Translations under genes and position numbers: made by a program | The notes under the pieces: model-generated | Database searches by the model: none | The model's input: the letters and a program-made list of their open reading frames with translations, nothing else | What the model was told of the DNA's origin: nothing | NCBI GenBank assembly: GCA_001630475.1 | Contig: KV419409.1 | Coordinates: forward strand, 616,360 to 680,359 | From: Sistotremastrum niveocremeum HHB9708 | Taxonomy: Eukaryota; Basidiomycota; Agaricomycetes; Sistotremastrales; Sistotremastraceae | DNA length: 64,000 bases | Direction: 5' to 3' | In this document: positions 3,751 through 59,056 of the stretch, one piece after another | How positions within the stretch are numbered: the stretch's first letter is position 1 | Layout of the letters: each line of letters starts with the position of its first letter

Positions 3751-5267
3751 TCAGTACTGAAGAATATGAACCGTATCAATATCACTGTGGTGCACAATCA
3801 GTCTTCCCCTCGCCGCATCGAAATTGTACACCAAAGAATCATCACCAAGCACACCCTCGGGACAGGAAAGCCCAATCCAGCGAGCAGCACCACCTTCCTC
3901 GTCGGGTAACTGCAACAATTTTACGTCGATGAGTCGAGGCCCTTCGTCGTGTCGTTCACATAATAGACTTGAATTGAACTGGGCAACGCCCTCGATGTTG
4001 TAAGCCATATCCCTCGTATGAGGCACTTGGTTCACTGCTGAGATCGGCCGCCAATCCCTGAGAGAAAGAGATAAAATCTCAGAGGTTGAGGCCCTTTCCG
4101 ACTGGCAGAAATCAAATTCAGACATTGCGTCGTCGAGGGGATCTGGTTGACAGAAGAAATCGAGGACCCATGGTGATGGACCAGCGTACAGCCGTCGTAG
4201 ACCGAGGGCTCTCCAAGATCTCGGGCTTTGATACACTATATGAGGTTGGATGAGGATTTCGGCATACGTCGATGATATAGCAGGCATTAGTGTCGGAATA
4301 TCACAGGTGAATATTCTGAGAAAGTGGGCGTCTTGGGGAGCTGTGGCATGTATGATGAGACGGGGCCCTTCGGGGTCAAGCCAAACGTGAACTAGGTGGA
4401 CGTGCTGGAATAGCCGGATGAGATTTCTTAGACCTCCCAGAAGCTGACACTCACTGACCAAATCGTGTGGCATTCGAAGGATTATCCCCGTCTCATCTTG
4501 CCAATTGCAGATGAAAATCGCCTCCCTCGACGACGCAGTCACCAAAGGCCCTTTGATCATTGGGTTGCAGTACCAGATCTCGGGCATCTTGATTGCGATC
4601 GATTTTTGATATTTGAGAGTGTGATTAGGTTCTCTGTCCTCCCCGTGAAACGAGAGTTCGAAGATATGCAACCGACAGATACCGCCCTCTTCGGACCATC
4701 GGCAAGCCATGACGACTTTTGAATTATCCTGCGACAATTCATAGACACTATCCAAGCACCAGTATGCTGACTGGTCTGTGTCAGATGGATTGGAGACAAG
4801 TACGACTCCTGTCACGAGATCATGGACTCGCACAGCTCCGGTTTCATCCAGGACGACGAGGTAGTCGTCGAAGAGGTGTATGCGAGACGGCGAATCAATT
4901 TCGAAGGTATACTGTTGAAGACAGGAAACAGATGGGGAAGCAGATTTGAGTCTGTTCCGCAGAGATACGCTGCGCGATGCATAACGATGAAGGGCCTGAG
5001 GGTCAATTGTTGCCAGATTCTGTCCCAAAGGAAGTGCGATCCTGGATGCATCGATGCAATTTGCAAGCATGCTGCGTTGACTAAGAACCAACGAGCGGAA
5101 ACGTGGACTGGTCTGGTGCGTTCATGTCAATAGATTAAATGAGTGCCATGATGGCATGATGGCACGATGGGGAGAAAACCGACTTGTGAGAGAGAGATCA
5201 GATCAGAGATATACATTTTCTCCGATATCTCAACGATGATCTCTGCAGGTAGATCTGCAAGATCCAT
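3751..5267 (-). CDS. G1: F-box protein with propeller-like C-terminal region
   Basis: Putative SCF ubiquitin-ligase substrate receptor of 463 aa. Exons on the minus strand: 5184-5267, 4459-5112 and 3751-4404. Exon 1 encodes the F-box (MDLADLPAEIIVEI, then YISDLISLSQ) and ends at the conserved phase-0 junction; exon 2 opens TSPRFRSLVL. The 54-nt segment 4405-4458 could be read through in frame. I take it as an intron because it has GT-AG ends (GTCAGT donor) and sits where G2, G3, G4 and G7 have their second intron. Family landmarks: LFDDYLVVLDETGAV, GPLVTASSREAIFICNW just before intron 2, and the terminal ARGRLIV...VHILQY. F-box proteins bind Skp1 and recruit substrates; the substrate here is unknown. 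No WD40 signature repeats are evident, so the propeller fold is an inference. Intron 1 starts GTCGGT, a weak donor. Confidence 0.85.
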
Positions 5268-5634
5268 GCTTCGACACTGAGAATCTCGGTGGATGGTGGT
5301 TGCGGCGGTGGACAAGAATGCTCTGATCATGATAGACGCCCGTAGCCAAGGGATAAAAATCAGGAACAAACAACATAATGTGAGTAAACGGTTGTATTAG
5401 CACATTCTGCACGGTACAAGGTAACGAACGAGAACAACAAATGGGTGATCCTACGATAGTCAAAAGCAGCCAGCGCGTGAATGAAATAGGTGGAGATCGT
5501 AACTAGCGATCTTCGTCGAAATGATATCGATCTCGTAAGGAGAACTAATGTAGAGGAACAAGATACTAACGGTAAATCAAATAACGAAAGCGAGAGATGA
5601 GGAGGTATGTAAAGAGGCTCCAAAGCAACCTGGC
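5268..5634. other. Spacer between G1 start and the SH3-like membrane protein gene
   Basis: About 370 bp, serving as promoter region for G1 and 3' flank of the next minus-strand gene. No gene or clear motif seen. Confidence 0.5.
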
Positions 5635-7308: not shown

Positions 7309-7711
7309 CTCAGACCTGCTTCGACTGACGGTCGAAAAAAGGAGGGACGAATAAAGGAAAGGAACGGCCTGCGAGAGTCCCAGGACTCAAAAACGAGACA
7401 GAAAGGTGAAGAGGAAGAGGATAAGGATAAGTTGAGTTCAATGTCGGAGATAGGAAGGGACCTCCCTAGCGTAATTCGGTGCATGACAACGAGATGACAG
7501 GCTTCTGCTTCCGTCGGCAAAATTTTCATCGGCCCCTTTGGAAGAACTTGAGCTAACGGCGCGGTCACGGTGATCTACGTCCAACGGCCTTCGATTGTAG
7601 TGAAGTGGAAGACGCTCAATTCGTGCCTGTCAGTTTGGAAAAAAATTCGATGGCAGCAGGACTTGAAACCTGATCGAGACTGGTATCTCGGATTCTCAGG
7701 CTATTCTTACA
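7309..7711. other. Promoter-side spacer plus target-site duplication copy
   Basis: Upstream region of the SH3-like membrane protein gene. The left 9-bp target duplication of the MITE (ATTCTTACA) lies at 7703-7711. Otherwise nothing seen. Confidence 0.5.
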
Positions 7712-8448
7712 GGATGTAAGGTCCGTACAAAGTATGACATCATAATAATCAGCGTCTATATGGATATAAACATGCTATGTCCGAGATTCCCTGATCTCGG
7801 TGAGTTTGGCGTTACGTCCGGGATCACTCCCTCAAGCGCAAGCCAAATTTTGACCAAGTCTTGATTGGCGATTTCTCTCTATTTTAACTTTGGTTTTGGT
7901 CGATTAATTCGTTGATTTTGTACATATACATTCAATATGATAAGGTACATGTTGCGCTCTATGGGAGGTCCCTCACGGGAGGGGAGAAAAGGAAAGAAAA
8001 GAGGGGGGAGGGACTCCGAGGGAGAGAAAAAGAGAGAAAAAAAAGATAAAGGTTGGAGAGGATAGGTGGGCGCGGGGAAGGCGGGAGTGAACAGATTGGT
8101 GTGTTGCACTTACCGTCGCGCATGAAACCCCGTCTGAAACACCCTGTGTCGCTCCTCGACGATGCGGCGGGCGCGTTTGGTTGTGGCGGCTTTTTCTTGG
8201 TCTTGAGAGGGATCTTGTGATTTTTCTGGCGGTTTTCAGGAGCTGCTGGCGCAGGACGCGAGCCCGAAGTCAATCAGGGGTGGCGAAGATGCAGAAGAGT
8301 AGCAATAGGGACGGGTAGGCGGCGGCGGCGAGCAGAGAAAGGATGAGCGGGGTTTGAAAATCATTAGAGTCGGAAGCACGGAAATGGACAATCCCGAGCG
8401 GGATTATGTTCGGATCATGATGTCATACTTTGTACGGACCTAGCTTCC
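7712..8448 (-). mobile_element. MULE-type MITE, copy 1 (737 bp)
   Basis: Non-autonomous DNA transposon. The ends are inverted repeats: the left starts GGATGTAAGGTCCGTACAAA and the right, read inward, starts GGAAGCTAGGTCCGTACAAA; both continue into AGTATGACATCAT. It is flanked by a perfect 9-bp direct duplication, ATTCTTACA, at 7703-7711 and 8449-8457. Target duplications of 9-11 bp with long inverted repeats are the hallmark of Mutator-like elements. No transposase is encoded. The interior carries a long pyrimidine tract (on the minus strand) and a ~100-codon open frame (7959-8273) that is also found in copy 2 at 44.4 kb. Orientation is given by that frame. Copy 2 is inserted in the opposite orientation with a different duplication, so the two are independent insertions. 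Confidence 0.92.
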
Positions 8449-11114: not shown

Positions 11115-11250
11115 CTGCGTAGGAACTTGAGATGCCTTGTCCATTGGTGACCGTATCATTGCAGAGCACTCCAATTACAGCGCCCTGGGGGCCTGGATAG
11201 TGACGGTGTCTGACATGGACTTGCATATTAACCTGAACAATACCCTATTA

Positions 11251-12794
11251 CTAGTAACGAAGGATATGTATATCGTTCTTCTCATTGACCAATAACCTTC
11301 CAGTAGTCTGATCAAAGCCGAGTATGGTGCAAGCCTTTCGAGTTAGAGAAGGTGGGAACTTGAGTTTTATCCAGCGATTCCGCTCCGCGGTTGTCACCGA
11401 CCACGTAAGACGCAGAAATTCAGGTCGAGCTTTCGTGTGTCTCTCCTCTTGTCTGAACGGCAAGGGTGTGGACGCGGAGGAATCACACAGAATGAGAACG
11501 AACAAGTGGCCGGGAGATGCACGGATAGTATGGGGATCGCGGATGGGCCTCCAGTCTTCTAAGGAGAGCGACACAAGGGTGGATGAAGCTTCACGATAAG
11601 GGTGCGGAGGTTGTTGTGCGGTTGCGGTTAACGGATGGAGGATGTCGAGGACGAACAGCGGATCGTCATTGGATGGAAGACGACGCAATCCTACCGATTT
11701 CCAGAGACGTTTATCGAATCCGGGAATTTCGGGAATGAAACTGGGCTCGAATAACTGTTTGGGCAACGTGGTCACCTGGGAGGGATCAAACGAGCGCAAG
11801 CCTGAGGGAATGGGGTAGATGCAGATTGGAATGGTGCTCAGTGGCCCCGAATAGCCAGCGAGCTTCATGATGAGCGTTCCATTATTCGGTTCGACCCAAA
11901 ATTGGCTGATTCCTGCCGCCTAAGGGGACGTGATTGAGAATTCTAAGAAGACGGGAACGAAGAGTTCACTCACAAACCCTGGGAAGAACGACAAGAAAAC
12001 TGCCGTTTCCTTTTCCCAATCATAGATCAAGATTGAATCCCAGTACGTAATGAAGATCAAAGGTCCGTTGAGAGTCATGCTGTCCTCGCTGGCACTTGGT
12101 ATCGAGACCACTCGCAACTCCTCACGCCAAATCAAACGTTGACGTTGTCCTTCCGAGAAGGAAAATGTCAACCGGTAAACCCTTAGCAGCGACAGGTCTG
12201 CATCCCCATCGAACCTGCAAGCCAGTTCCGCTTGAATGATTTCCGAACGACTCTCAGACAACTGCCATTTTGAGGCATAGACCACCTCGCCCTCTATCGG
12301 TCCTGCGCTGAAAAGGCATTCCAAGCTTTGAATGTCGTATGCCCGTGCTTCTCCTCTAGAGTAACTGAGGAGTAGGATATAGTCGTAAAGGAAGCACCCG
12401 ATAACAACTGAGCCCGCCGATGCGCGCCAAATAGAGGGTAAAGTCGTAAATCCTGAACATGGAAGTAGAGACGTTGCCTCATGCACCCGCTTCGATAAAG
12501 CTACAGCTGAACAGGCTCTCGCGTGGAGGGTGGTTGCGTCCACTGATGATAATGAATAGCCCATTGGAAGGGGGATGATATACGCATCAGGGGAACTGGC
12601 TAGCAGCGCCCGATGATCGAGAACCATTGAACGAAAGGCAGAACACGTCTATGAAAATGGATTCAGGAGTTAGACGTGACGAGGCGTAAATCCCAGCTCA
12701 CTTGCGATAAAGATATGAAATCCGCCACAGTCATTTTCTGCCATATCTTCAAGATAAGCTCGGTGGGGAGAGCATCCATCATCTCGACCGCCAT
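11251..12794 (-). CDS. G2: F-box protein with propeller-like C-terminal region
   Basis: Three exons on the minus strand: 12702-12794, 11974-12648 and 11251-11919, giving 478 aa. The start at 12794 is preceded directly by an in-frame stop; alternative ATGs lie at 12782 and 12779. Exon 1 is the F-box (DALPTELILKIWQKM, TVADFISLSQ), followed by the family phase-0 intron and TCSAFRSMVL. Landmarks: FLYDYILLLSYSRGEA, GPLIFITYWDSILIYDW before intron 2, and the C-terminal FDQTTGRLLV...DIHILRY. The second intron (11920-11973) uses the acceptor CTTAG, chosen because it alone keeps phase. It is nearest to G3, with which it lies in tandem 370 bp apart. Predicted Skp1-binding substrate receptor with unknown target. 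Confidence 0.85.
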
Positions 12795-13166
12795 TCACGA
12801 AAGGTCTGTCTTGTGTGGTCTACAGCAGCCTACCATCTTTGCCTTGTCGCTTAAGTATGCGAGGATGAGGCGGACTTCGAAACTCAAGCCGACGGAGCAG
12901 ATCTGCAGACCAAGCGGACCTATCGCTGTCATCGCTGCTGGACCAGACCTCTCGGTGAAAAAAGCAAATATGTGATTAAGGTCCTTATTAGGCCCACTCA
13001 ATTCTAGTTCTCGGACCTTCAGTTTTCCAGTTTTATGAAACGATGAACTGCTCGAAGAATTGGACGGTCGCAGTTCTTTGTGGACGTATTTACATGACAT
13101 TTCGGCGTTAGGACCGGAAACCAGGTCTACCATCTATTGGAAAGGTGCTAGTTGATATGGCGCCCG
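12795..13166. other. Spacer between G3 and G2
   Basis: About 370 bp. A 112-codon minus-strand open frame runs into the G2 start region but shows no family resemblance, so I treat the stretch as the G2 promoter plus G3 3' flank. Confidence 0.45.
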
Positions 13167-14674
13167 TCAGTAATAAAGAATATGCATCGTGTCCCTTTCC
13201 ATCAAAAGCAATCTTCCACCCAATCGATCAAATCCAAGTTCGAAAGAACTTCTAGGAAGTGAATCCGGGAGCGACAATTCGGTCCAGGCAATGGGATCAG
13301 CTGGCCTATCATGAAGCTTTAGAAATGAGACTCCGTAGGGGGAAGGGTCAGTCCTATGTATGCAGAGCGGAGGAGAATTCGATAGATAAGCGTCGTGGAA
13401 ATCGAACGTATAGAAATCTTTCGAAGAGTAGCTGAGGGATTTGGGCGGAGACATGAGGCCCCAATCTGACACTGACAGGGTCTGAAGCTCGACTCTGGGT
13501 TCTGGCGCTGAATCATGCGATGAACTCTGCGGGAGCTCTCGACGGAAAGTCGGAATGGGGCTGGACAGGATATCAAAAAGCCAGCATGACGACGAGCGTC
13601 GCAGACCGAGGGCAGTTCTGATGGAATTCCCTAAGATGTCCGCGCGATAGGCTAGCTTAAATTTCGTGAACTGATCGGGCCACGGATGAGATGTGGACAT
13701 AAGGAGTTCAGAAATGCGACAGGTATATATCTCCAGCATAGTCTCTCCATCGATAAACAGAATTAGCTGGTCTTCTTCGCGATGCAGCCATGTTCTGCCT
13801 ATCTCATCGTCCTGGAGTCAATAGTTAGACCGAGGTGCACGTACTAAACGGAGGCAGATGCTCACCAAGTTCTCAGGAAAGGGCACAGATGTCCCGGTGT
13901 TTTCTTCCCAGTTACAGATGAGAAATCGTTCTGAGCCTTCAATGACAATCAACGGCCCATGGAGAAACAATCTTTCGTAACTAGCTTCATGAGGCAGACC
14001 GATCGTGAATAGCTCGTGTGTAGTGAGAGCAAGGGGCTCATCAGATTCGGATAGCCGGAAAGAAAATCTGTACACGTCGACGCGTCGGTCTTCGTAATGC
14101 GAGACGACTGCGCTTGGCATGATAGCCAGAATAACTTGTGAACGATCAGGTGACTGTTGGCAATCTACCAACCGAATGTCCTCGTCTGGTAAGGTATAGT
14201 TGAATAGCCCCTGCTTAGTTCGCAAGTCGAAGAGACTGATTTCGCCGCCGACGTGGACGATAACGAGAATGTTGTCAAATAGGAAGATTGGGTGCAAATA
14301 GGCGACAGGGAACTCGTGGAATAGCTTCAGCTTTAGATGTTTTTTGCAGGGAACTGTTGAGTCCCTCAATCGTCTCAAAAGTGAGATCGTCTGAGCGGCG
14401 CAGAAATGGAGGGAGTTCGAGTCGATATTTGTCAAGGATGAGCCGAAGGGAAGGGAAATGATATGTGAGTCAGGGGCGCCAGCAAGGATGCTTCGGCGTT
14501 CTCGGATGAGGGCCCTCAGCTCGGTGCATGTCTATCCACTGATCAATAAGTCTCATAGGAAAAGATGTGACAAAAAGAGGTACAGACTTGGGAAACCGAG
14601 ATCAAATCGTAGACGATTAAATGCTGCAGGATCTCCAGAATAATTTCAGACGGCAGTAGGTCCAGAGCAGTCAT
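13167..14674 (-). CDS. G3: F-box protein with propeller-like C-terminal region
   Basis: Three exons on the minus strand: 14588-14674, 13866-14531 and 13167-13811, giving 465 aa. Exon 1 (29 codons) is the F-box: ALDLLPSEIILEILQHL, then YDLISVSQ. Exon 2 opens TCTELRALIRERRSIL. Landmarks: LFDNILVIVHVGGEISLFDL, GPLIVIEGSERFLICNW immediately before intron 2 (donor GTGAGC), and a C-terminus FDRLGGRLLL...TMHILYY. Introns are 56 and 54 nt. Exon count, intron phases and length are almost identical to G1 and G2, so the three are close relatives by structure although sequence divergence is substantial. The frame is intact throughout, so this copy looks functional. Partner Skp1 is expected from the F-box; the target is unknown. 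Confidence 0.85.
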
Positions 14675-17735: not shown

Positions 17736-18354
17736 GTTACATTGGTCGACATATATCTGCTGTTCTACAACACACGCTTTCTTGTTCCTGTTTATCCACC
17801 TTATTTTCGCAAGCCAAATTTCTCATAACTACGTTCATTATAATTCGTTCTTTTTCGTTGTGACTTTCTTGGTTTGATTATTGAACTTGAACTGTAGTTC
17901 GTTCGGAGAGTAAGATATCGTGTAAACTGATGGAGTAGTCTCATCTCAACGAGCTAATGAGTGGATCATGTCGAGGTATTGGGAGAGGTTTCTCATGTGA
18001 TCCTGACTATCCCAACATGCGACGACGATGCCCAACCCGTCGAATCTCACGATACATACCTCACAAAGCGAAAACCTACATTCTTTGTACGAACGATGTG
18101 GCTGTTAGAGATCAGATGATCATGATCTATGCGAAAATCTCTCGAACTAAGGTCACCATCATGACTGAATGCTTTCAAGTGAGAATTTCTTCAGGACTGC
18201 CAAATTTATTATGTCTCCAGAACCCCTGGTCGCGAAGACATACATGTAGACGGGATCCTACATAGAGAACTAGTATTCAATTAGATGCAGATGATCGTCC
18301 TCGTATAGCAGGAGTCGTCCGCGAAGATGATCAAAACCGAGAAACGAATCCCTT
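17736..18354. other. Convergent spacer, including the out-of-frame tail of G4
   Basis: No independent gene seen. Positions 18270-18354, read on the minus strand, still encode the lost C-terminus of G4 in another frame (see finding). Confidence 0.5.
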
Positions 18355-19792
18355 TTAAAGGAAACGGGGACTCCGATCAAACTTTGCATCTTTCTCAGGA
18401 AGTTGCAATCGTACCCATGCAGTCATGAGGTTGTGGCTATCACCAAGTTTCAGAATATATATACAGTTCTCCCAGGTATCGATGATTACCGGTAAACGGT
18501 TGTCGATTTGTTGAGACATAGATCCCCCTGTAACCTGAAGTGGTCTGATGGTGTCGGAAATTTCGACATTTTTACCTCTGCCTTCTTCCAGGTTGAAGCG
18601 CAGGTGACTGATTGTCATCGCCTCGCGCGTACCATTGCGTTGAGGAATCAGGCTTTCAACATGATTTGACTGCGGAGTTCGGCGCACCCACACGGTGGGA
18701 TGCAAGACCATTCGAAAGGGTTGCCTGAATTCCTTGAGATGGACCTCAAGGTCATTCCACTGGAAGTCTCTGAGATTTTCAGAAGAAGTGTTCCAAGCGG
18801 TTCCTTCATCCTTTAAAGCAGGTAACGCGATAGGTAGCTTGATCGAAGCAAGGACGAATTCGCAGGCGCGGCGGCAAATTGTGGAAATTGACTTGAAACC
18901 GGGATGAAAGCACGCATCAAGACGCTCCTAAAACCGCGATGAATGATAGAGCAGTCATACATTATATCGAGACTTACGAAGTCGGCGGACGCCCTTGAGG
19001 TGAGCCACAGGGCAGACTTCTCGACCCAGTTGCAGTAGAGGATGCCATGTCTTCCTGTTAGAAGAATTCTGTCACCATCGACTTTCATACTCATGACTCT
19101 AACGCATGCAAGAGGGTCGAATCGCGTTATAAACCGAGTTTTCACTTCGCCGAAGTTCGCATCACAGATCGAGTATTCCTCCACCTGTATAACATAACCC
19201 ATCTCGTCCGAGTGGTGGCAGAGGGCAGCGATAACTTTCCTTGCTGAGAGGACGACCTGGTACGAGGACTTGTGGATGCTCCCATACTGGTGTCGAGAGG
19301 ATAGCCCATTGCTTAGCTTCAAGAGGACTATGATGTCTTTAGGACCCGAGAAATGAAGTACGACATAGTCATCAAGAAGTAATTTTCCGGGGCCAGGGGA
19401 CATTTGGGAAAGAGGTGGGAGCGGAAACATAGAATGCTTTTTGACGTTCACCCTATCCTCCGAGGAAACGGGACTTAGTCTTCGAGACAATGCGACAGCT
19501 TGAGCCGCAGCACGAAACGACTCTCCAGGACCAACATCATCATCCGTGATCTCCCCGAAAGGCAATGGTATGATTTCTGGATTGGTAGAGGAGAGGAAAG
19601 CCGATTTATGGGTCCTGATCAGTTCGCGCATCTTCGAACACGTCTGTCGTGGGCGCAAGGCGCAATGAGAACTCGAGGCCTGTGATCAACGAAGCTGCAA
19701 CGTACCTGAGCGAGATGGACGATTTCCTGAACGCTCAATGAACTCATGAAGAGAAGACATAGCTCGGGTTGCAAATCATTAAATTGCACCAT
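18355..19792 (-). CDS. G4: F-box protein, C-terminus cut short by frameshift
   Basis: Three exons on the minus strand: 19706-19792, 18978-19643 and 18355-18927, giving 441 aa. Exon 1 is the F-box (FNDLQPELCLLFMSSL, SVQEIVHLAQ). Exon 2 begins TCSKMRELIRTHKSAFLSST and includes LLDDYVVLHFSG and RILLTGRHGILYCNW before intron 2. Exon 3 begins ERLDACFHPGF. It is the closest relative of G7 at 42.6 kb, sharing long identical stretches (KMRELIRTHKS, NGLSSRH, ILYCNWVEKSALWL, NLRDF/LHWNDLE). The frame stops at 18355, whereas the family signature FLGFDHLRGRLLL...LHLIEY follows in a different frame down to a TAG at 18270. The protein therefore lacks about 24 conserved residues. It may be a recent pseudogene, a tolerated truncation or a sequencing error. 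Confidence 0.75.
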
Positions 19793-38356: not shown

Positions 38357-39491
38357 AGACTCCACTAGCGAAAGGGTTGAAGGGAGGATTTTATAAAGAA
38401 ATAATGGTTGCTATTTTTGCAACTGGGATATGACGTCGTATGTCAGCCAGTGTACCATTACGATAGAGCATGGTACCATAACACAATTTTGAAACATCTC
38501 TCTGGTGCTCTATTCTTGTTCGTCTTTGGGAGTCTGTGGTTCCTGCCAATGATCGAAAATATGGACGCCTCGAGAAGTACTCGATGTATACTGGACGGTA
38601 CCACAGCGTATCACGAGAGACAAGAGATGGACGGATTCCGGGTAGCGATTACCGTGGGCAAGCCTTCGCCTCTTGAGAGAAGAGTGCGACTCAGACACGG
38701 CTGTGAGGCTACTGAATCCACGAGACCGTAGATCCACGAAAAGATTACCGAAGAGAACGGCGGGTTGATCAATCGAAGATACAGAAGTGTGATTTCATGA
38801 TAGGAGTGTATTGACGTGCTGATCTGCTGTGCAATACCTTCAATTGGCACTGGTTTGAGCACCTCGCGCATCTCAGGGGTGTCGAAACGGCGCTAGATCA
38901 GATTGATGTGGTGCCGCGATTGAAAAATAGACGGTGAGATCATTTGCCGCGAATAAGGATAATGCTGTCATAACGGGCCTTTTCTTGGGTTAGATTGACA
39001 AACTACGCAAGGACTGCGTAAATGAGTGACCAACCGTAAGTCTAGTAAGCTATGGAATTAGTTGGCGGGTAAGGCTGCCGCGTTCAGAGAAGCTTATCAA
39101 TTCGAACTGTTTTGAGCAAAATCATGATGTCACTCCAGAATATTCGTAGTGAAAATATTGAAGTCGAGAGCCCAGACGAACGCTATGCTTGAAAGTGGCT
39201 GAGCATGGGAGCACTACGGCGCCGTGAGTGAGGGTCGAGCGGTGGAAAGACGATGCACAGCTGGCGGCACAAGAAATAAAATCACGGGAACTGTCGGCTT
39301 CGGATCGGGAAAGGAGAGCGCGGCCCGAAAGACTGGGATCGGAGTTACCGCATTTAGAGGCCGCATTGCACCCTCTCGCTTACGGCGCCTGCTCCTCCTG
39401 CCTTCTACTCCCTCCCACTACATCCCTCCCGCCTTGTCTCTCTTTCAGCCATCCACCCACCAACTACTCTTATTCTTATCCTAGGACGGCC
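38357..39491. other. Spacer with promoter and CT-rich leader of casein kinase gene
   Basis: About 1.1 kb. The last ~120 bases before the kinase ATG are strongly pyrimidine-rich (39370-39470), as is usual for transcription-start regions of housekeeping genes in filamentous fungi. An in-frame extension of the kinase ORF to 39228 exists but has no homology. Otherwise nothing seen. Confidence 0.5.
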
Positions 39492-41829
39492 ATGACAACT
39501 CATGTGATAGCCTCCTCACACAACCGGGATGTCTCTTCACCCCATGCCCACCAGTCTTCCTCGTCGTCGATGCACAGCGGCGGAACAGCCGTCATTGGAA
39601 GTCACTATAGAGTCGGAAAGAAGATTGGAGAGGGCAGCTTTGGCGTCGTGTTTGAAGGAACTAATTTGTTGAATGGAGCTGCTGTGGCGATCAAGTTTGT
39701 GAGTCTGGTTCAAATCGAGCGGTTGAAGGAGCCTTATTGTTCGACGTTCGTCGCTACCAACGTCAGGAACCTCGGAAAGCGGATGCACCACAATTACGAG
39801 ATGAATATAGAAGTTACAGAGCGCTCAATGGAACTCGTGAGTTAAAGCATGCCGTCGTCACGGTGGAGCTAATTGTTTCGGAAATATAGCTGGTGTACCC
39901 CAAGTGTACCATTTCGGACAGGAAGGACTTCACAACGTATGCCTCCATGGATTCAAACAATGCTTGTGTTCATCATGAATATTAGGTCCTCGTGCTTGAT
40001 CTCCTGGGGCCCAATTTGGAGGACCTGTTCGATATGTGTAATCGGAAATTCACAATCAAAACTGTCTGCATGCTGGCTAAGCAAATGGTTCGTGTCGCGT
40101 CTTCCTGCCCCCATTCCACCTCCCCGTAGTCGTGCTTGGTTCCTTGCATCCGACTGTGACCGCGGATATCGTCGTTCCTGGTCGAGCCAGGCATCGGCGC
40201 CGCAGATGACACACATGGCCTAGTCAATCACGTGACCTCATTCTCACTAATGTCTGTCTTCATCAGCTCACACGAGTGCAAGCTATCCATGATAAGAGTC
40301 TGATATACAGGTTTGTGTGTCACTTTTCCGCCCTGACCTCCCATTCATGAGATACACGACAACAGGGATATAAAGCCAGATAACTTTCTAATCGGAGCGC
40401 CTGGAACCCGTACCGCAGGCCTCGTCCATATAATAGATTTCGGTATGGCAAAGCACTACCGCGATCCTCGGACACACGTACACATTCCTTACCGTGAACG
40501 AAAATCCTTATCGGGTACCGCTCGTTACATGTCGATAAATACGCATCTCGGCAGGGAACAGAGCCGACGAGATGATCTGGAGAGTCTGGGTCATGTGTTT
40601 ATGTACTTTTTGAGAGGAGGTCTGCCGTGGCAGGGGTTGAAGGCCGCAACTAATAAACAGAAATATGAGAAGATCGGTCAGAAGAAAGAGAGCACTCCCA
40701 TAAGCGAGCTTTGCGAAGGATTCCCTGGTATGTATCGGTCTACGTCGTCCTCATAATTCGATGGCTGACCTGAGGCTATCGCAGAACATTTCGCGACTTA
40801 CATGAATTACGTCCGAAAGCTCGGATTCGACGAGCAGCCTGATTACGACTTCCTTCGAGCGCTCTTCGTCAAGGTGCTGCAACTTATTGGAGAGACTGAC
40901 GACGGTCAGTACGATTGGATGGCGCTGAACGGTGGTAGAGGATGGGAAGCCGGTAACGTAAGTAATTTTTGATATGATAAAGTCTGCGACATGGCACTAA
41001 ACCACTTCCATCACAGACTCCGTCATCGCTGCTGGTCCAAGCACATGCTCAAGCTACTCCTCATACGCCTCACAGGAGTCAACGTCGCTCGCATCATCCA
41101 AATGGTGGCGACAGGACCGATAGACGTGAGAGGGAGCGAGAGAGAGACAGGGACACCAACGGGCCCAATACTTCCGCCGTTGGCGTATCACCGCTTATCA
41201 TTCCTTCACCCGCCGCGATCGCCAAGAAACGCGACAGGGAACGTGAACGTGATAGGGAGCGGTTGGGCACCGAGCGCGATAGGGCCCTTTCGATCTCGCC
41301 TATCCCTCCTGCTAGTCGGCGCGCCAGTGGCATGCCATCGGCCGTTGCTGGAACTCCTACCAGCTCTCATCCTTACGCTTCCGCCGCTATGTATATGAAC
41401 GGTACCATTGGCACTGGGACGAATCCCAATGCGACTACAGCCCCCAGCACGCCGACAGTCAATAATCCGAATGCCGCGAACGGTGTCAATCCTCTCGGGA
41501 ATAGTATCAGGAACGGCGATCCGACGAACACCAGCAACTCTCACATGCGTGATCCTTCGCAGCCTCAGATGCGAACGCCGTCGAATCAATATAAGCCTCT
41601 ACCTACTCCTCAGCCGTCGAGCCCTACACCAAGCGAAAGGGAGCAGCAGCAGGCTCAAGTTATTTCTCAGCAGCAAGCACAGAATATGCAAAAGAGGATG
41701 TACATGCCCCAGGAAAGCATGAGAGTTGATCCGAGAGTCAGCGCTGAGGGACGACAGGCTATGCAGCGAGGCATGGAGATGGAGAGGAGGAGTGAGAAGA
41801 GGGGCTTCTTCGCGAGTTGTTGTCGATGA
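39492..41829 (+). CDS. Casein kinase 1, Yck-type with C-terminal palmitoylation motif
   Basis: Ser/Thr kinase of the CK1 family, 605 aa. Eight exons: 39492-39698, 39767-39836, 39890-39936, 39986-40087, 40267-40310, 40366-40727, 40785-40957 and 41017-41829. The glycine loop IGEGSFGVV starts at residue 45, with Lys68 in VAIKF. The CK1-type catalytic loop is YRDIKPDN (Asp158, Tyr instead of His), DFG begins at Asp181, and the CK1 substrate-recognition segment [20 protein letters not shown] follows. After the kinase domain (ending near residue 335) comes a long Gln/Asn/Pro/Ser-rich tail with an Arg/Glu/Asp stretch ([11 protein letters not shown]). The protein ends GFFASCCR; a terminal Cys-Cys pair is the palmitoylation site that anchors yeast Yck1/Yck2 to the plasma membrane. 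Expected roles: morphogenesis, endocytosis, nutrient sensing. Start chosen at 39492 because upstream residues show no homology. Confidence 0.95.
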
Positions 41830-42644: not shown

Positions 42645-44165
42645 ATGGTGCACTTCAATGATTTGCATCCCGAGCTATGTCTACTCTTCATGAGTTCCTT
42701 GAGCGTTCAGGATATCGTCTCTCTCGCTCAGGTGCGTAGCTACTTAGTTCAGATCAGGCTTTGGTCCTCATTCAGCCCTTGCACCCATGCCAGGCCTGTT
42801 CGAAGATGCGCGAGCTTATCAGGACCCATAAATCAACATTCCTCTCCTCCACCAATTCCCAAATCATACCATTTCCTCTTGGGGAGCTCACAGCTGATGT
42901 TGGCCCTGAAGAGTTGTTTCGTGCTGCGGCTCGAGCTGCCGCATTATCTCGAAGATTGAATCCCCTTTCCTCGGACCATAGTGCGAACGTCAAAAAGCAT
43001 TCCATCTTTCCGCTTCCAGCTTCTCTTTCCGTCATTCCTGCCTCCGGGCCATTGCTTCTCGATGACTACATCGTGTTTCGTTCAATGGGTCTTCGCGATT
43101 TTCTATGCCTCTTCAAGTTTAGCAATGGGCTCTCCTCTCGGCACGACTATGAGCTCATTTATGAGGAAACGTATCAGCCTATACCCTCGAGAAAGACTGT
43201 TGTCGTTGCTCTCTGTCTGCTTGGCAAGGAGACAGGTTCAGGTTATGTTTTACAGGTGGACGAATACTCCATCTCTGATGAGAACTTTGGCAAAGTGGAT
43301 ACTCATTTCATTATGAGATTCTATCCTACAACATCCCGCCTAATGCTGAGTATGAGAGTCGAAGGGAACGGACTTCTCGCAACAGGAAGATATGGCATCC
43401 TATACTGCAATTGGGTCGAGAAATCTGCCCTATGGCTCAAACCATTGCCGACCACCGAATTCGTAAGTTGTGATGTAGCGTGTTACTTCTCTATCATTCA
43501 TCGCACTCCAGGAACTTCTCGATGCGTGCTTTCATTCCGGTTCGAATTCAATCTACATACTTTGTCAAACCGCCTGCGAATTCGTATTCGCTTCATTCAA
43601 GATGCCTGTCGCGCTACCTGCTTAGAAGTTCGAGGGAGCTGCGTGGGACACGACCTCCGAAAGCCTCAGAGACCTCCATTGGAACGACCTGGAGATTCAC
43701 CACAAGAAATTCCGGCAACCTTTTGGAATGGTCGTGCAGCCGAGCCTTAGGGCTTGTGAAACAGTGCGGTCCACTTATCTTGAAAGCCTGATTTTTCAAG
43801 ACAGCGAGGAGCGGCCGGCGATGACCCTCACTCACCTGCGATTCAACCTGAGAGAAGGCGAGGGTGAAAGCGTCGAGATTTCTCACACCATCAGACCAGA
43901 TGCTCGGGAATCGATGGCTTTACGAATCAACAAGCATTTACCGGTACTCGTCGCCCCAACGGAGAATTGTATATATGTCCTGAAACTTGGTGATAGCTCC
44001 AACCTCGTAACTACTTGGGTCCGATTGCAACTTCCTGAGAACGATGCCAGATTGGGATGGCTTCCAACATTGGATCGCCGGTTCTTTAAGTTTCTCGGTT
44101 GTGATCATCTTCGTGGACGACTCCTGCTATGGTCGGACAATAATCTGCATGTAATTGAGTACTAG
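42645..44165 (+). pseudogene. G7: F-box gene with in-frame stop in exon 3
   Basis: Closest relative of G4. Exons: 42645-42731, 42794-43462 and 43512-44165. Exon 1 is the F-box (FNDLHPELCLLFMSSL, SVQDIVSLAQ). Exon 2 opens ACSKMRELIRTHKSTFLSST and includes LLDDYIVFRSMGL and GLLATGRYGILYCNW. Exon 3 opens ELLDACFHSGS and runs 37 codons to a TAG at 43623-43625, where G4 has a Leu codon (CCTGCTTTAAAG against CCTGCTTAGAAG). Beyond the stop the frame continues with full family homology (SLRDLHWNDLE, MTLTHLRFNLREGEGESVEI) to FLGCDHLRGRLLL...LHVIEY and the normal stop. Translation would give ~289 aa lacking the last third. Readthrough or a sequence error cannot be excluded. The gene is otherwise intact, so inactivation must be recent. 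Confidence 0.8.
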
Positions 44166-44414: not shown

Positions 44415-45168
44415 GGAAGCTAGGTCCGTACAAAGTATGACATCATGATCCGAGCATAATCCCGCTCGGGATTCTCCTTTTCCGTGCTTCCGACCATAAT
44501 GCAGGCCTAATGATTTTCAAACCCCGCCCATCCTTTTCTCTGCTCACCGTCGTCTTCGTCGTCGTCGCCGCCGCCGCCTCCTCGTCCCCATTGCCACTCT
44601 TCTGCGTCTACGCCACCCCTAATTGACTTCCAGCTCGTGTCCTGCGCCAGCAGCTCCCGAAACCCGCCAGAAAAATCACAAGATCCCTCTCAAGACCAAG
44701 AAAAAGCCGCCACCACCAAATGCGTCCGCCGCGTCGTCTAGGAGCGACACAGGGTGTCTCAGACGGGGTTTTATGCGCTACGGTAAGTGCAATACACCAA
44801 TCTGTTCACTCTCGCCTCCCCCGCGCCCACCTATCCTCTCCAAACTTTTTTTTCTCTCTTTTTCTCTCCCTCTTCCCTCTTTTCTTTCCTTTTCTCCCCT
44901 CCCATGAGGGACCTTCCATAGAGCGCAACATGTACCTTATCATACTGAATATATATGTACAAATCAACGAATTAATCGACCAAAACCAAGAGTCAAAATA
45001 GCGAGAAACCGCCAATCAAGACTTGGTTAAAATTTGACTTGCGCTCGAGGGACTGATCCCGGACATAACGCCAGGCTCACCGTGTTCAGGGAATCTCGGA
45101 CATAGCATGTTTATATCCATATAGACGCTGATCATTATGATGTCATACTTTGTACGGACCTTGCATCC
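44415..45168 (+). mobile_element. MULE-type MITE, copy 2 (754 bp)
   Basis: Second copy of the element at 7.7 kb, in opposite orientation. Left end GGAAGCTAGGTCCGTACAAA; right end, read inward, GGATGCAAGGTCCGTACAAA. It is flanked by a perfect 9-bp duplication, GCCCAGTTG, at 44406-44414 and 45169-45177. The interior is nearly identical to copy 1, including a ~95-codon open frame (44623-44907) and a C/T tract with long T runs. There is no transposase. It lies between the end of G7 and the start of G8, only 93 bp upstream of the G8 ATG, so the G8 promoter must lie largely within the element or be driven from it. Confidence 0.92.
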
Positions 45169-45261
45169 GCCCAGTTGGACCGGACTTTCAAACTCAGCAG
45201 ACAGAGACGACGCTCGAGTCGGTACAACTCCTATAGCATTCTACTGGCTGGACCTAAGAGA

Positions 45262-46885
45262 ATGGAAGACTTCATACTACGCTTACCAGATGAAATAATC
45301 GTCAATTGCGTGTTGGGAATGACCCTGGAAGATTTACGTAACGTCGGTGCGGTGAGCGCTTGTTTTCCAGAGAAAATCTTCGGTCGGGTACTGATTGTTG
45401 ATGGCGCGCCTCTCTACAGACATGTCGACGATTTCAAGACATCCTCATGACACAAAGAAAGCCGTGGTCTACTGCACCGGATAAATATCGACTTCCTCTT
45501 CCTATGGGCAAGACTTTCCAAACCGTCTCGATCGATAAAATTTATTGGCTGGCTTGCCGGGCTGTGACTTTGCAAAAGAAGTTCGACCGATATGAAGTCA
45601 CTCCTTTACGCGATGAGCTTCAACCTAGAAAAGCTCTGATCACAAAGTTCATGTCAGATGCACAGGGCTCTTCTTATCGTAATAGGCCAGCTGGACTATT
45701 ACCCGGGGGACGCATCATAGTGGCACACTGGACGTGGCTCATCAAGTTCTATACGATTGATGGAAAAGCTCTTCTGCCCGAAATCACGTACGATGGGTTA
45801 TTGGTAGCTATAGACTGGACCACTAGCGACAATGGAGGAACGACCACACTTGCACTAATTGTGGAAGGTCCCCCGTGAGTTTTCCTTGCAACTTTTTGGG
45901 ATGTTCTTACAGGCCATACAGGAGAAAAATGATAGCCTACAGCCTCATTTACACCGTCACAGCCCGGAATAAAGAACGACTGAACATAAAGAAGGTCATC
46001 GAAATCGTTTTACCACCCAATGGTGGCAACGAATGTCGCTTGTCGCTTCGTGAACCTTATGTCGTGGTTCTTGAGGGAAGGAGCGCTAGCGTCACTGTCG
46101 CAGATTGGGTGACTGGGAGAAATTTCCAGTTCACTTTTAACGATACGCATGATCGAGTGGGTTCCGTTCTCCGTGATGCAAGCTCCTCATAATATCTTTG
46201 TCAGAATCGCGCCATAAAGCGAATAGGCATCCATCCAACGGAACCGCAGCTGATATTTCAGTTTATGACCTATCATGAAGGCATTTGGATTGAAACCCTC
46301 TCCAACATCGATGACTTTCTACTCCCCGAACCCAAGCCCAGCAAATCTTTAAACGAGAGCATCAACTCAGCGATTACTTTTGTTCAACAGTTCGCCGAAA
46401 CTTCAAGCACAATAATCATCCCTCTCTATAATATCGCACGTGAAACCTCGGACCATATCTTTGAAATGGTATTCACCCTGGATTGCCGAGATATCAATCC
46501 TCCAAGACTGTGCACAATATCCTTATCTCTCAAACCCTCAGAGTCCAGATGGAGATTCCACAATCACGGCTCAATTCCAGAAAAAGGACATGCTCTGACT
46601 TTCAAGACATCGCAGGGCGATACCGTACTTTCCTTTTGTGAATCGCCGCAGCGTCTTATGGAGTTTGGCTTTGATACTCATTCCATTCTCCCCGACTTTC
46701 GTGACAATCTTCGATTCATCTTTCCACCCTATCCCAGCTATTGGGGATGGGGGATCTGGGAAAAGAAGCTTTGTCTTCCAAGACGGATTGAAGATGGCAG
46801 ACGCTATGTTATACAAGCTGTCGACAATATTCATGGATTTGCGTTGGTGTGGACGATTCAGGGGATGTGGCTTGTGAAGTATTAA
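45262..46885 (+). CDS. G8: F-box protein, subfamily with 'PGGRI' core
   Basis: Four exons: 45262-45351, 45420-45874, 45913-46156 and 46205-46885, giving 489 aa. Exon 1 (30 codons) is the F-box: MEDFILRLPDEIIVNCVLGM, LEDLRNVGA. Exon 2 begins TCRRFQDILMTQRKPW and has LPLPMGKTFQTVSIDKIYWL, LLPGGRIIVAHWTWLIKFYT and AIDWTTSDNGGTTTLALIV. Exon 3 contains PYVVVLEGRSASVTVADW; exon 4 contains IGIHPTEPQLIFQF and GIWIETLSNIDDFLL, ending GFALVWTIQGMWLVKY. Its layout matches G9 and G10, with one intron more than G1-G3. The C-terminus replaces LHILQY with a related MWLVKY. The frame is intact. The start codon is 93 bp from MITE copy 2. Presumed SCF adaptor with unknown substrate. Confidence 0.87.
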
Positions 46886-48337
46886 CCCGGCGAGAGCTTC
46901 GCGATTTGAAGTATGAAGGGGTCGGAAGGTTCGTCTTATTATGTTATGAATACTCTACATATATATCATTCTGACTCACCGCTCATATAGTCGCATAAAA
47001 GAATAATGCAGTCCGCATCCATGCGGCGCGCTAGATTCCAGAGTTATTTGTCGAGGACCCATTTGAGTTTTGAACGAGACCAAACGAAGCAGCGAGTCAT
47101 ATCAAGTTAGGTCTCACGTCTCAAATATCCTGGCTCGCCGAACCCATAAAAGTCGAATACGTACAATGAAGAATAATTCGCACGCAGAGTGTACCTATAT
47201 GTCAAGCCACTGACCACATTCGATATTCTGAAGATAATTATTGATCAGCGTCGAGCTCGCCGTCGTCCAAGACCAAGCTAAGACAGAGACTCACCTCCAG
47301 CGAAACAAGACCGGCAAACCTCGTCGAAATGAAGTTCAGAGTCCTTTCGAGGGGTCGACCAATGAGACATCATCCTCCGTCGTAACGATCGTCTCAAAAG
47401 AAATCCATGAATCAATTTCTGGCTCGATGCACAAGCGTAGCCTGACTCGGAGGCACATACTGTTCTCTTAAACGATGGAAACCGATCTCTTCAATTCCTA
47501 TCCGGCACTGCTAATGAAAGGAAGTCGCTTGATGATTTTTGAGTCACTCGATGTCGGCGTCGTGGATTCGCACCGAGGTATGAGTCCGTATGACTGCCTC
47601 CCCTTGAAACAGCCCACATCTTCCTAAACGCCTGAATATCGAGATGAACCATTGATAAAAGGCTGACTCTGGGTCAATGAGTGAACGGATGCCTTCGAGA
47701 TTACCAGGTGCTTGCACTTGGTCTCTCCCGTCCGGGATGTCACGTGACAAGAATTAAGTTGTACACTTTTCACTTTGTACACTTTTGTTGACNNNNNNNN
47801 NNNNNNNNNNNNNNNNNNNNNNNNNNNNNNNNNNNNNNNNNNNNNNNNNNNNNNNNNNNNNNNNNNNNNNNNNNNNNNNNNNNNNNNNNNNNNNNNNNNN
47901 NNNNNNNNNNNNNNNNNNNNNNNNNNNNNNNNNNNNNNNNNNNNNNNNNNNNNNNNNNNNNNNNNNNNNNNNNNNNNNNNNNNNNNNNNNNNNNNNNNNN
48001 NNNNNNNNNNNNNNNNNNNNNNNNNNNNNNNNNNNNNNNNNNNNNNNGTCGAGAGTACTTCGGATATCGATACTGGATTGTCGCTGCAAGGGAATGTCGA
48101 GTCTTCATCTGAGACATGCGTCGGCCTTCAAGTGTCGATGATGGTGGTCTCACCGAATCTTTGAATCGATCTCCGACTGAAACAACTACAAAGGCTCGCA
48201 CCGCACCTGGTCCCTCCGCGGCTCCGCGGCCCTAGTTCGAGAAGGAGACGGGGTTTAACTTGTAAGTGATCTGAATTTCAAACTCAGCCGACGTTCCATT
48301 TCTATTGCTTCCTACAGCCCTGGCCGGATCAGAGGCA
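46886..48337. other. Spacer containing an assembly gap
   Basis: Sequence between G8 and G9. Positions 47793-48047 are 255 N. Just left of the gap TTGTACACTTTT occurs twice within 35 bases (47759-47787), a hint that a repeat caused the gap. Open frames reported across the N run are artefacts. G9's promoter lies just right of the gap. Confidence 0.8.
47793..48047. other. Assembly gap (255 N)
   Basis: Undetermined bases; gap size may be estimated rather than measured. Confidence 0.99.
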
Positions 48338-49986
48338 ATGAAAGACTTCATGCTACTCTTACCGGATGAAATGATCGTGAACTGCCTGTTAGAACTATCT
48401 CTGGAAGATCTACGCAACGTGGGGGCGGTGAGCGCTTGTTTTCGACTGGAAAGAAAATATTTTGTGAACTGATAGCGCGCCTTGGTGCAGACATGTCGAC
48501 GCTTTCAAGATATCCTTACATCCCAAAGAAAGCCTTGGTACGCAGCTTCGGATGTGCATCGACTTCCTCTTCCTATGGGCAAGACCTTCCATACCATTCC
48601 GATCCAAGAAATCTATGGGCTGGCTTGTCGAGCAGTGACATTGCAAAAGAAGTTCGCAAAAGACGTAGTGGCACCTTCACCCGATGATCTGCAGCCTAGC
48701 AGAGCTTTGGTCACGAGATACCTATGTGATGCACAGGGAGTTTTGATTCGCCAAAGACCGGCCGGAATACTCCCAGGAGGGCGCATCGTCGTGGTATACT
48801 GGCTCCATCTGATCAGATTTTACACGATCGATGGAAACGCGTTTATGCACGAAATACGGTACGATGGAGCACTACAAGCCATAGAATGGACGAGTGAAGA
48901 CAACGGAGCAAGGACCACAGTCGCAATAGTCGTTGAAAGTCGAACGTCCATGTGCGTCTGTAATCTTGTGATTCCGGATTTTTTTCTTGAGACCAGATTT
49001 AGGAGGAAGAATACATTGGTCTATGATCTCCTTTACACCATCACAGACAGGAATAAAGAGAAATTGTCCATCAAGAAGCTTGCGGAAGTGGACCTTCCCG
49101 AGAATTTTCGCGAATGCTACACTTTAACTCTTCGTGATTGTTATATTGTTCTATTCGATGGAGCAGGCATCAGAGTTATAGATTGGAACGCTGGGAAACG
49201 ATTCCAATTCTTCCTCATCAATGTGGATGACGATGACGATGACGACGACTTTCGGGAAGTGCGTTATGATTTTTCTGTCAATGATATTCGTTAAACTCAT
49301 AGTGAATTCGTCAGATTAGCGTTCTTCAAAGAGTGGACATTCATCCAAGTCGCCCTGACCTGATCCTTCAATTTTCTACCTATTCGCAAGGCATCTGGAT
49401 CGAAACCCTACCCAATATTGATGAACTCCTACTCTCCGAAACCAACTCTCAAGAAACATGGAAACAGATCAGCGAGCCACCAATCCATTTCGTTAAGGAG
49501 TTTCCAGAATGCCTCGACACGAAGGCTACTCCTATATCGAGGATAGAGAGAGATACATCCGGCACCTTCGACATGGTGTTCTTGCTGGAACGCGCACCGG
49601 AAGACCCCCCTTCAATCTGCTCAATATCTCTATCTCTCGCAGATTCTAGCCTGTCGTTCAAGGATCATGGCTACTGTTCAGTGATACGCGATTTCACTAC
49701 TTTCAAAACATCACGTGGTGATAAAGTTCTTGCGCTCCGAGAAGATTATCAGAGCCCAGATGTCTCCGATTATTATCCCGACAAGGGGGACCGTCATGAT
49801 GATCTACGCCTTATCTTTCCACCATACGAAAGCGCCGAATATCCAGGTTCACCAATACGAGAGACGAAGCTGGGTCTTCCGGAGTGGTTGCAAAAATGCA
49901 AACGCTGCGTTATTGTTGGCGTCGATCATATCTACGGGTTCGCGTTGATATGGACTGACTTCGGGTTGTGCGTTGTGAATTATTGA
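48338..49986 (+). CDS. G9: F-box protein, intact relative of pseudogene G10
   Basis: Four exons: 48338-48427, 48491-48951, 48997-49258 and 49315-49986, giving 494 aa. The F-box exon is MKDFMLLLPDEMIVNCLLEL, LEDLRNVGA. Exon 2 opens TCRRFQDILTSQRKPW, with LPLPMGKTFHTIPIQEIYGL, ILPGGRIVVVYWLHLIRFYT and AIEWTSEDNGARTTVAIVV. Intron 2 (48952-48996) is 45 nt and could be read through in frame; the G8 and G10 counterparts have stronger splice sites at the same point, so I splice it. Exon 3 has CYIVLFDGAGIRVIDW and an Asp run (VDDDDDDDDF). Exon 4 ends IYGFALIWTDFGLCVVNY. It is highly similar to G10 at 57-59 kb. The frame is intact, so this is probably a working copy. Target unknown. Confidence 0.87.
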
Positions 49987-51132
49987 GAATACGTGGTTCA
50001 CAGCAGATCAATGATGGCCAGCACTGTGTGGGTCTTCACTTGTATCGATACCATGGTGACGACAATCTGATTGTGATCTCCTGCAGCCCGCTCTTTTGAC
50101 ATAGACGAAGGCAGTATTCGTCATGGACTTCGGGCGATAAGTCGTATTACTCGGCTGAAACGTTCTTCCCTTTTTTCGTTCACAACGTCCCATACTCCTA
50201 GCGATCCCGCAATATTCAAACCATAACCCAAACGCGTTCAGCAATCGGAAAAGTGCACAAATCGTAGCCTTGGACGACCTTTGTGCTCTGGTACTGTGTG
50301 TCCTTGCCTGTCCTACACGAGCGGGACACAGAAACTAGCACCAGGCCCTCCAAAGACGGACTTCACAGTAACTTTCCTATCCTATCTCGAAGATGGGAGA
50401 GGAAGTTGGAGTCGCGGACGGAAGTCACCATCAAACTACTCGAGAACGCCATACGATCAGCTCTTGAGAAAAGCGCTGAACGTTCCCCAGTCATCGTCAA
50501 GACATACTTTACATCACCATATCACATCCTTCTTCTTTATCTTCTTCTTATGTTAATTCTCAATATAATACATAGAGAAAAAAGAAAAACGAAGCCGAAG
50601 AGCAAAGATTGAGAATGAATAAGCGGTATAAGTCACGAAAAGAAATCAGAGGACGAATGAAAGGGGAGAAGGAGGGCTATGTACTATACAATACTGAAGA
50701 GCGAATGGGGAATGGAGAGGGAAGAATGGACATCGAAGGGGTGTGTGTGTGCTATGAAGGAGAGGAGTGGAAGAAGGGCAAGGACGGTGAGTAGGGATAC
50801 ACAGGAAGGCGTATTTCGGCTGTGGGAGTTACGGGATACGGGGGAATGATAAGAAGGAAGAGGTGTGAAGGAATCGGAGGGATGGAAGGGGATTAACGGG
50901 GTGGGGGGTACGAACAACGATGGCGACGAAGACGAATAAGAGGTTGAGGGACCGTGGGACGTGTATAGTCGCGGTGATGGATGAGTGGAGAACGACGAAT
51001 GAAGAAAGAGTAACGGGGAAGCATAGATGCGAAGAGGAGAGGAGAACGACAAAGAGATCGAGCCAAAGACCCCGAATCCGAATCCGAATTCGAAGGACGG
51101 AGACGAAGGGATCAAAGGCCCGAAAGCAAACG
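49987..51132. other. Convergent spacer between G9 and the DUF6533-type gene
   Basis: About 1.15 kb. The right half is purine-rich on the plus strand (GGAGAGG-type runs), forming the 3' region of the minus-strand DUF6533 gene. No gene seen. Confidence 0.45.
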
Positions 51133-56574: not shown

Positions 56575-57340
56575 ATGTTTGAATTGAGAGTTGTGTATGC
56601 GATAGGTATTGTATGGAATGTATCATTAGGGAAAATTTATCTTGGAATTTCTTCGTTTTCTCGAAGTCTTCGGGTGGAGCGAATTTTTCGCGTGCGTTGG
56701 GAGGTCATCGTTTGCAAAGAATTCTACCGTATTGTTCAACTTGAAGATGTATTGGAGCTCGGTGCTTTTCTTGTCTGTGACTAGTATGACTCGATATCGA
56801 ATTATGCAGGGCGAGATGGATAGCGGTCGTGGAGTCATGGCATTGATAACAGATTTATTACAGATGTTTTCGCGGTAATTATCCTAAGTCGGAAGAATGA
56901 TACCACCAGATTCAAATGAGGAGGGAACAAAATTTGTTGACTCGAGGAAAGTGATGTGGACGAATCAATATCGGACGAAAGGCCAAGATGCATATGGAGC
57001 GGGAACGATAGAGAGATGGGGAGTGTGTGTCATACATGTAGCTTACCACGACAATATTAATGGGGATACAAATGATCTATACACAGATAGCTCTTGTGGG
57101 AGGGAGAAGAATTATCAAACTGTGCGACTGAGAAAGTAAGGTAGAACGTATAAATTGAGGAGAGGAGAGGAACAAATAATCCGCTCGAGCTTTGTGACGA
57201 GGGCTGTTTTCGTCTATGACAAAAGACTGACATCGGGGCTATGCAAGCTTGCAGTCAGAAAATTGTCAAGGCTGGAGCCCGGACATAGGAGAGACGCACG
57301 TAGTGCTGAATATTGTTTGGTTGTCAAGGATCGCGCGTGC
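56575..57340. other. Convergent spacer
   Basis: About 770 bp; 3' flanks of the hydratase gene and of pseudogene G10. Nothing seen. Confidence 0.5.
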
Positions 57341-59056
57341 TCAATAATTCACGACGCACAACCCGAAATCGGTCCATATCAACGCGAACCCGTAGATATC
57401 ATCAACGCCAACAATAACGCAGCGTTTGCACTTTCGCAACCAATCCGGAAGACCCAGCTTAGTTTCTCGTATTTGTGAACCTGGATATTCGGTGCTTTCG
57501 TAGGGTGGAAAGATAAAGCGTACATCATCATGACGTTCGCCCTTGTCGGGATAATAATCGGAGAGATCTGAGCTCTGATAATCTTCTAGGAGCGCAAGAA
57601 CTTTATCACCACGTGAGGTTTTGAAAGCAGTGAATTCGCGTATCACTGAACAGTAGCCATGATCCTTGAACGACAGGCTAGAATCTGCGAGAGATAGAGA
57701 TATTGAGCAGATTGAAGTAGTGTTTGAAAGTCCAGTCCACGTGACTGCAGGCAACCGCAGGTCGTGGTGGGGTCGTGACTGGACTGCAGTTGCCGGTCAT
57801 CTGGATTTCTGAAAATCAGGCAACTGGCAACTGCAGTCATGACCAGTCGCAACCGTGGTCGCAACCGAGGACCCTTAAGGGCCCTCAGACAGGGTGTTCC
57901 CAGGGTATTTTGGGTCTCAAGTGACCATTTATGGTCATGTATTCATCAAATATGGTACCATATGGTGTTCCTATGTGTTAATACACACTATATGACCACT
58001 AATAAGACTCAAAAACAATATATAAATGAATAAAATAATGGTTTATGCCAGTTATGACCTCAGTTGCTGGCCATGACTGGTCAGGCAACTGGTCTTTTTG
58101 TGACTGGTTGCCAGACCCTGCAACCGGTCGCAGTTGCCAGTCATGCAAAATTTTGACAGGCAACCGGACCGGCAGTTACCAGTCATGGGCAAAAAGTGAA
58201 AAAGTCCAGTCGCAACCGGACTTTCAAACTCTAGATTGAAGGGGGGTCTTCAGGTGCGCATTCCAGCAAGAACACCATGTCGAAGGTGCCGGATGTATCT
58301 CTTTTACTCCTGGATATAGAGATAACTACTTTGTTGCGGCATTCTGGAAAATTCTCAACGAGCTGTGTTGTTGATTTGTCAATCTGCTTCCAAGCTTCAT
58401 GAGGGTTATTTCCGGAGAGTAGGAGTTCGTCCATATGGGGTAGAATTTCAATCCATATGCCTTCCGAATAGGCATAGAATTGAAGGATCAAGTCAGGGCG
58501 ACTTGGATGAATGTCGAATCTTAGGAGATTGGTACTCTGACGAATGAATTATGAGTTCGACGGACATCATTGGCAGAGATAATCAAAACGCACATTGAAG
58601 AAGAATTGGATTTTTTTCTCAGTGTTCCAGTCGACAACGCTGATGCCTGCTCCGTCAAATAGAGCAACATAACAATCCCGAAGAGTTAAAGTGTAGCATT
58701 CTCCGAAATTCTCGGGAAGGTCCACTTCTGCAAGCTTCTTGATTCTCAATTTCTCTTTATTCCGGACTGTGACGGTGTACCGGAGATCATACACCAATGT
58801 CTTCTTCTTCCTATATCTGTTGTCAAAAGAACTCCGGAATTCCAAAAATAAGGACGTACATAGACATTTTATCTTTAACGACTATTGCGAGTGTCGTCCT
58901 TCCTCCATTGTCTTCACTCGTCCATTCTATGGCTTTTAGGTCTCCATCGTACCGTATTTCGGGCATAGAAACCTTTCCATCGATCGTGTAAAATTTAATG
59001 AGATGCAGGAAGTATGCAACAACAATGCGCCCTCCTGTATGGCCAGCCCAGCGTTG
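57341..59056 (-). pseudogene. G10: truncated F-box family pseudogene split by a hAT-like element
   Basis: Remnant of a G9-like gene on the minus strand. It begins abruptly near 59056 inside the PGGRI region (GGRIVVAYFLHLIKFYTIDG), so the F-box exon and about 130 N-terminal residues are missing. The next family intron is present with a good donor (GTACGT) and CAACAG acceptor (about 58811-58857), followed by KKTLVYDLRYTVTVRNKEKL, CYVALFDGAGISVVDW and, after another intron, FDIHPSRPDLILQF. The frame then meets APEDPPSI at 58234, where a 516-bp element interrupts it. Across the element the frame resumes at CSISLSLADSSLSFKDHGYC and runs intact to the terminal FGLCVVNY. Apart from truncation and insertion there are no obvious stops, so decay is recent. 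It is too broken at its 5' end to make the family protein. Confidence 0.88.
57718..58233. mobile_element. hAT-type non-autonomous element (516 bp) with 8-bp target duplication
   Basis: Terminal inverted repeats TAGTGTTTGAAAGTCC (left) and TAGAGTTTGAAAGTCC (right, read inward) fit the hAT terminal pattern YARNG. The element is flanked by a perfect 8-bp duplication GATTGAAG at 57710-57717 and 58234-58241, the hAT target size. Subterminal regions are crowded with CAGTTGCC/GGCAACYG and CAGTCATGAC words in both orientations, as expected of hAT transposase-binding sites. The AT-rich middle has no coding capacity. It sits within the last exon of pseudogene G10, replacing nothing; removal of the element and one duplication copy would leave a continuous frame. 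Confidence 0.9.

Follow-up and report, generated by a model that had tools for sequence, protein, structure and literature searches.

In the F-box/WD40 receptors (FBXW), such as Cdc4 and Fbw7, the loops of a beta-propeller bind substrates and present them for ubiquitination, and families combining an F-box with a propeller are probably common in mushroom-type basidiomycetes. An array of ten genes, G1 to G10, in a 64,000-nucleotide stretch of Sistotremastrum niveocremeum HHB9708 (the window; positions 616360 to 680359 of contig KV419409.1, here C16, in a 34.7-Mb genome of 111 contigs) appears to encode proteins of this layout, with an N-terminal F-box followed by a predicted propeller. Unlike FBXW, these proteins lack WD40 repeats recognisable by Pfam and exist as many fast-diverging copies; they may work like FBXW receptors yet are not filed as FBXW. 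The abundance of F-box genes in the genome resembles that of the expanded mushroom families, such as the one in Flammulina filiformis, where 80 of 210 F-box genes are developmentally expressed (PMC7567395). F-box genes also occur in orthogroups that only complex multicellular fungi possess (PMC8893723), and in Macrophomina phaseolina 61% of the F-box proteins have no other recognised domain (PMC7991009). The FBA2 and FTH families of Caenorhabditis, as described in an excerpt of PMC8665587, are likewise lineage-expanded and under purifying selection overall, but Caenorhabditis F-box families carry other C-terminal domains. For many fungal F-box proteins no further domain is on record, and the large family of that appearance found here probably shares a single hidden receptor fold.

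The array is probably a patch of a large, fast-turning F-box/beta-propeller family of substrate receptors for Skp1–cullin–F-box (SCF) ubiquitin ligases, expanded within the lineage by birth-and-death evolution. The F-box of the array genes is real: all five clean full-length models passed the Pfam gathering score of PF00646 (F-box; G1, 26.2 bits; G9, 25.7 bits) or PF12937 (F-box-like; G2, 28.3 bits; G3, 31 bits; G6, 24.7 bits), each match straddling the junction of exons 1 and 2, in agreement with the sequence-only reading, which had called these genes F-box genes from the letters of the window. The full-length scan took in these five models, with G4, G5, G7 and G8 outside it. In the genome as a whole, at least 23 places matched PF00646 (E<=0.001) and at least 98 matched PF12937 (E<=0.01; 150 of 263 candidates scored), and there was one Skp1 place along with cullin matches at three loci. 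In the proposed mechanism the F-box would dock on Skp1, giving a link to cullin and E2, while the propeller loops would bind substrates and present them for ubiquitination as in Cdc4 and Fbw7.

The C-terminal region gave no Pfam family at cut-off in five full models and 54 exon rows, and WD40 repeats (PF00400) were found in 0/5 and 0/54 of these, respectively, in searches whose HMMER filtering removes the majority of matches above E 0.1; profile searches of the PDB likewise did not identify the domain by sequence. A TFIIIC_sub6 match in G3 (E 0.24) fell below the Pfam cut-off, and matches to AIPR_N (E 0.00095), Glyco_trans_4_2 (E 0.031) and IntS9_C (E 0.095) were taken as chance because each occurred in only 1 of 30 rows. 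AlphaFold2 (AF2) applied to window sequences (G1, 3754-5112) returned a beta-propeller with a predicted template modelling (TM) score of 0.71, for which the nearest structures in Foldseek were WD40 proteins, the Cdc4-Skp1 and Fbw7-Skp1 complexes among them, at E values down to 7e-9 and a TM of only about 0.4. The propeller fold for G1 was drawn from AF2, Foldseek and VIA, and G9 gave a half-propeller; the F-box did not resolve in a second AF2 prediction. In a viral Foldseek search the matches included F-box, BTB and WD40 proteins of giant viruses, with a best E of 1.3e-7, no closer than the PDB. A beta-propeller is thus a well supported prediction for the C-terminal fold and is likely to be of the WD40 type, and its structural neighbours make the region a probable substrate receptor of a diverged propeller type. 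The earlier description of a family with no recognised substrate domain consequently holds for sequence searches and not for predicted structure. Its proposal of a substrate receptor gains a receptor-like predicted fold, while placement of the region in a known domain family, the outcome it had named as counting against a new system, was seen at the level of predicted fold yet not as a Pfam family at cut-off. The array family would be treatable as propeller-type receptors, open to ordinary SCF tools. Searches of open-access papers turned up no account of how the C-terminal region folds in a fungal F-box family of this kind, which is not proof of its absence from print.

Across the genome, searches with four query proteins, once merged, gave exon-2-like matches at 110 places without overlap, spread over 26 contigs (E<=0.01), after removal by hand of rows matching exon 1 or exon 3 alone (e.g. 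3/41 in one search). Nine of these lie inside the window, and its contig has 25 in the interval from 465 to 697 kb. About half of the places were weak and short, and 53 of the 110 were found by G9 alone; because these G9-only matches were mostly limited to the first ~60 residues of exon 2, they may represent a wider superfamily. Ten of these distant loci were inspected by eye; each had close by a frame that finishes with a G, hydrophobic residues and an aromatic as last residue, and five had G-R-L. In a tree of 30 full-length rows, aligned out of 46 exon-2 matches, the window genes formed no single clade: separating the window rows from other C16 rows needed four changes, at least three of them via well-supported branches, and window rows made up one side of a branch in 0% of 200 bootstrap trees; 90 of 500 shuffles were as low in changes, so that there is no significant clustering of the window genes either. 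The tree groups were G1-G3 (92/69, moderate), G4/G7 and G5/G6 (both 100/99), with G8 and G10 placed beside G9 by similarity rather than in the tree, in which the position of G9 is unsure given a long-branch warning that named it foremost. Instead of a ten-member family, the array therefore comprises roughly four subfamilies of a genome-wide one. The suggestion of an undescribed system finds no support, because the window holds just 9 of the 110 places and large F-box families have already been reported in mushrooms; what is seen is probably an ordinary expanded ubiquitin-ligase family with a fold missed by sequence tools.

The array itself is real, and about half of its ten copies are damaged. 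Spliced models, built manually on open frames and GT-AG sites and independently of transcripts, give nine genes (G1-G9) three exons separated by two introns, each in phase 0. Exon 1 has 28, 31, 29, 29, 45, 43, 29, 30 and 30 codons in G1 to G9, respectively, and ends in SQ (G1-G3), AQ (G4-G7) or GA (G8 and G9), and directly after it comes a GT-AG intron, 53-71 nt long and in phase 0; the sequence-only reading had given the 28-45-codon range, these endings and the phase of the intron. The second intron, 48-58 nt long and equivalently placed in 9/9 models, had been overlooked. The TC(S/R)xxR motif reported after exon 1 occurs strictly in four of the nine (G2, G4, G5 and G6), the others reading TSPRFR (G1), TCTELR (G3), ACSKMR (G7) and TCRRFQ (G8 and G9). 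Exons 2 and 3 form the C-terminal region, which had been put at ~420-480 residues and measures 435-480 in the five clean models (218-256 from exon 2 and 214-245 from exon 3); lesions are present in G4, G5, G7 and perhaps G8. The strands were correctly given, with G1-G4 on the minus strand and G5-G9 on the plus strand, as was the absence of a first exon from G10, which is on the minus strand.

Uninterrupted reading is confined to G1 (3751-5267, minus; exons 5184-5267, 4459-5112 and 3751-4404, the last two also open across the in-frame 54-nt intron 2), G2 (11251-12794, minus; exons 12702-12794, 11974-12648 and 11251-11919), G3 (13167-14674, minus; exons 14588-14674, 13866-14531 and 13167-13811), G6 (36663-38356, plus; exons 36663-36791, 36856-37560 and 37619-38356) and G9 (48338-49986, plus; exons 48338-48427, 48491-49258 and 49315-49986). 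In G4 (18270-19792, minus; exons 19706-19792, 18978-19643 and 18270-18927), comparison with G7 places a loss of frame close to the 3' end of exon 3, with an early stop at 18355-18357. Exon 2 of G5 (34608-36305, plus; exons 34608-34742, 34809-35517 and 35568-36305) is by eye 2 nt shorter than that of G6 near its start, which puts G5 out of frame unless it is spliced differently. G7 (42645-44165, plus; exons 42645-42731, 42794-43462 and 43512-44165) has its exon 3 interrupted by an in-frame TAG at 43623-43625, and G8 (45262-46885, plus; exons 45262-45351, 45420-46156 and 46205-46885), a possible lesion, has its exon 2 frame broken near 45875-45921. It is conceivable, if doubtful, that several of these lesions are assembly errors or missed splicing and that more of the ten copies are intact: those in G4 and G5 shift the frame by little, G8 would regain its frame if a 47-nt GT-AG intron were removed, and an unsupported 42-nt one, picked by eye, would skip the stop in G7. 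However, the G7 stop aligns by eye with a sense codon in G4 without an indel, and both insertions that interrupt G10 have target-site duplications.

G10 (57340-59037, minus) is a 3' fragment of a G9-like gene, its homology to G9 stopping at 59037 rather than at the 59056 given earlier. At this point the parent gene is cut by a ~17.7-kb insertion, running from 59038 to 64000 and on to C16:693110, with a 6-bp target duplication and a 26-bp inverted repeat (84.6%) at its ends; the likely 5' part of the parent is on the same strand at a distance of 17.7 kb, and the two pieces overlap by 6 bp in G9 coordinates. Eight frames in the insertion had no Pfam match over cut-off, and its first 1.2 kb gave no second match in the genome search. 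The other insert, of 515 bp at 57718-58232, has ends reading TAG[T/A]GTTTGAAAGTCC and an 8-9-bp flanking duplication, and, with 40 of 248 candidates scored, is matched over its full length at no fewer than 37 genomic places, counting its own; it would be a hAT-like non-autonomous element. Over their final 378 nt (49610-49987 and 57340-57717), G9 and G10 are 94% identical, against 78% for the rest of the shared stretch, which suggests gene conversion. Copies would be born by tandem and inverted duplication and decay through small lesions and transposon insertion, and the birth-and-death evolution proposed from the letters is supported by the tandem and inverted pairs, the lesions and the one copy split by insertions.

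Damage on this scale, with lesions in G4, G5, G7, G10 and perhaps G8, together with a G4/G7 dN/dS (the nonsynonymous to synonymous rate ratio, omega) of 0.50 at dS 0.50, could indicate mostly relaxed, decaying duplicates of little present function. This is unlikely given five clean three-exon models, splice sites in nine genes and an omega of 0.25-0.30 in G5/G6 and G8/G9. For pieces of four window pairs dN/dS was 0.18-0.56, in line with constraint on the protein, with bootstrap intervals topping 1 in two short pieces, G4/G7 exon 1 (29 codons) and the G9/G10 3' end (126 codons).

A role in conflict or recognition, with which the sequence-only reading had drawn a parallel, would mean that foreign, parasite or allelic proteins are the targets of the propellers and that positive selection drives these apart, a role that has been proposed for nematode F-box families. 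Large copy number, clusters and decay would fit, as would one of four pairs tested elsewhere, the young pair C24 27k/29k (dS 0.31), with omega above 1.5 in 5/23 segments of exon 3. Loops were also less constrained than strands (pooled pN/pS 0.50-0.51 vs 0.39-0.40, in 9 and 7 pairs; two of 24 exon-3 rows deviate from plain translation, both starting with M and probably in the first residue only), with a weak strand/loop contrast in entropy (p 0.20 in exon 2, p 0.03 in exon 3). However, the role is decidedly unlikely and without support in the window, because dN/dS there is below 1, at 0.25-0.50 overall in three pairs, and 0/137 segments of 45 codons exceeded 1.5 across G4/G7, G5/G6 and G8/G9, with power limited in the latter two since segments with saturated dS were set to 0. 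At this same segment size most nematode pairs show C-terminal omega peaks (73/95 pairs in C. elegans, according to the excerpt of PMC8665587), in contrast to none in the window pairs. It is very unlikely that the hundred or so SCF receptors, with propellers evading the libraries, recognise non-self, parasites or transposons and not fixed developmental targets.

A run of 255 N bases at 47793-48047 lies just upstream of G9. Sub-cut-off partial matches to Pkinase and Frag1 were noted in genes between the array members (39228-39842 and 25868-26377, respectively). An element of ~740 bp is present as inverted copies at about 7712-8448 and 44415-45168, one of them ending ~95 bp upstream of G8, and has, by eye, 28-bp inverted ends and 9-10-bp target duplications; seven near-full places occur in the genome, both window copies included.
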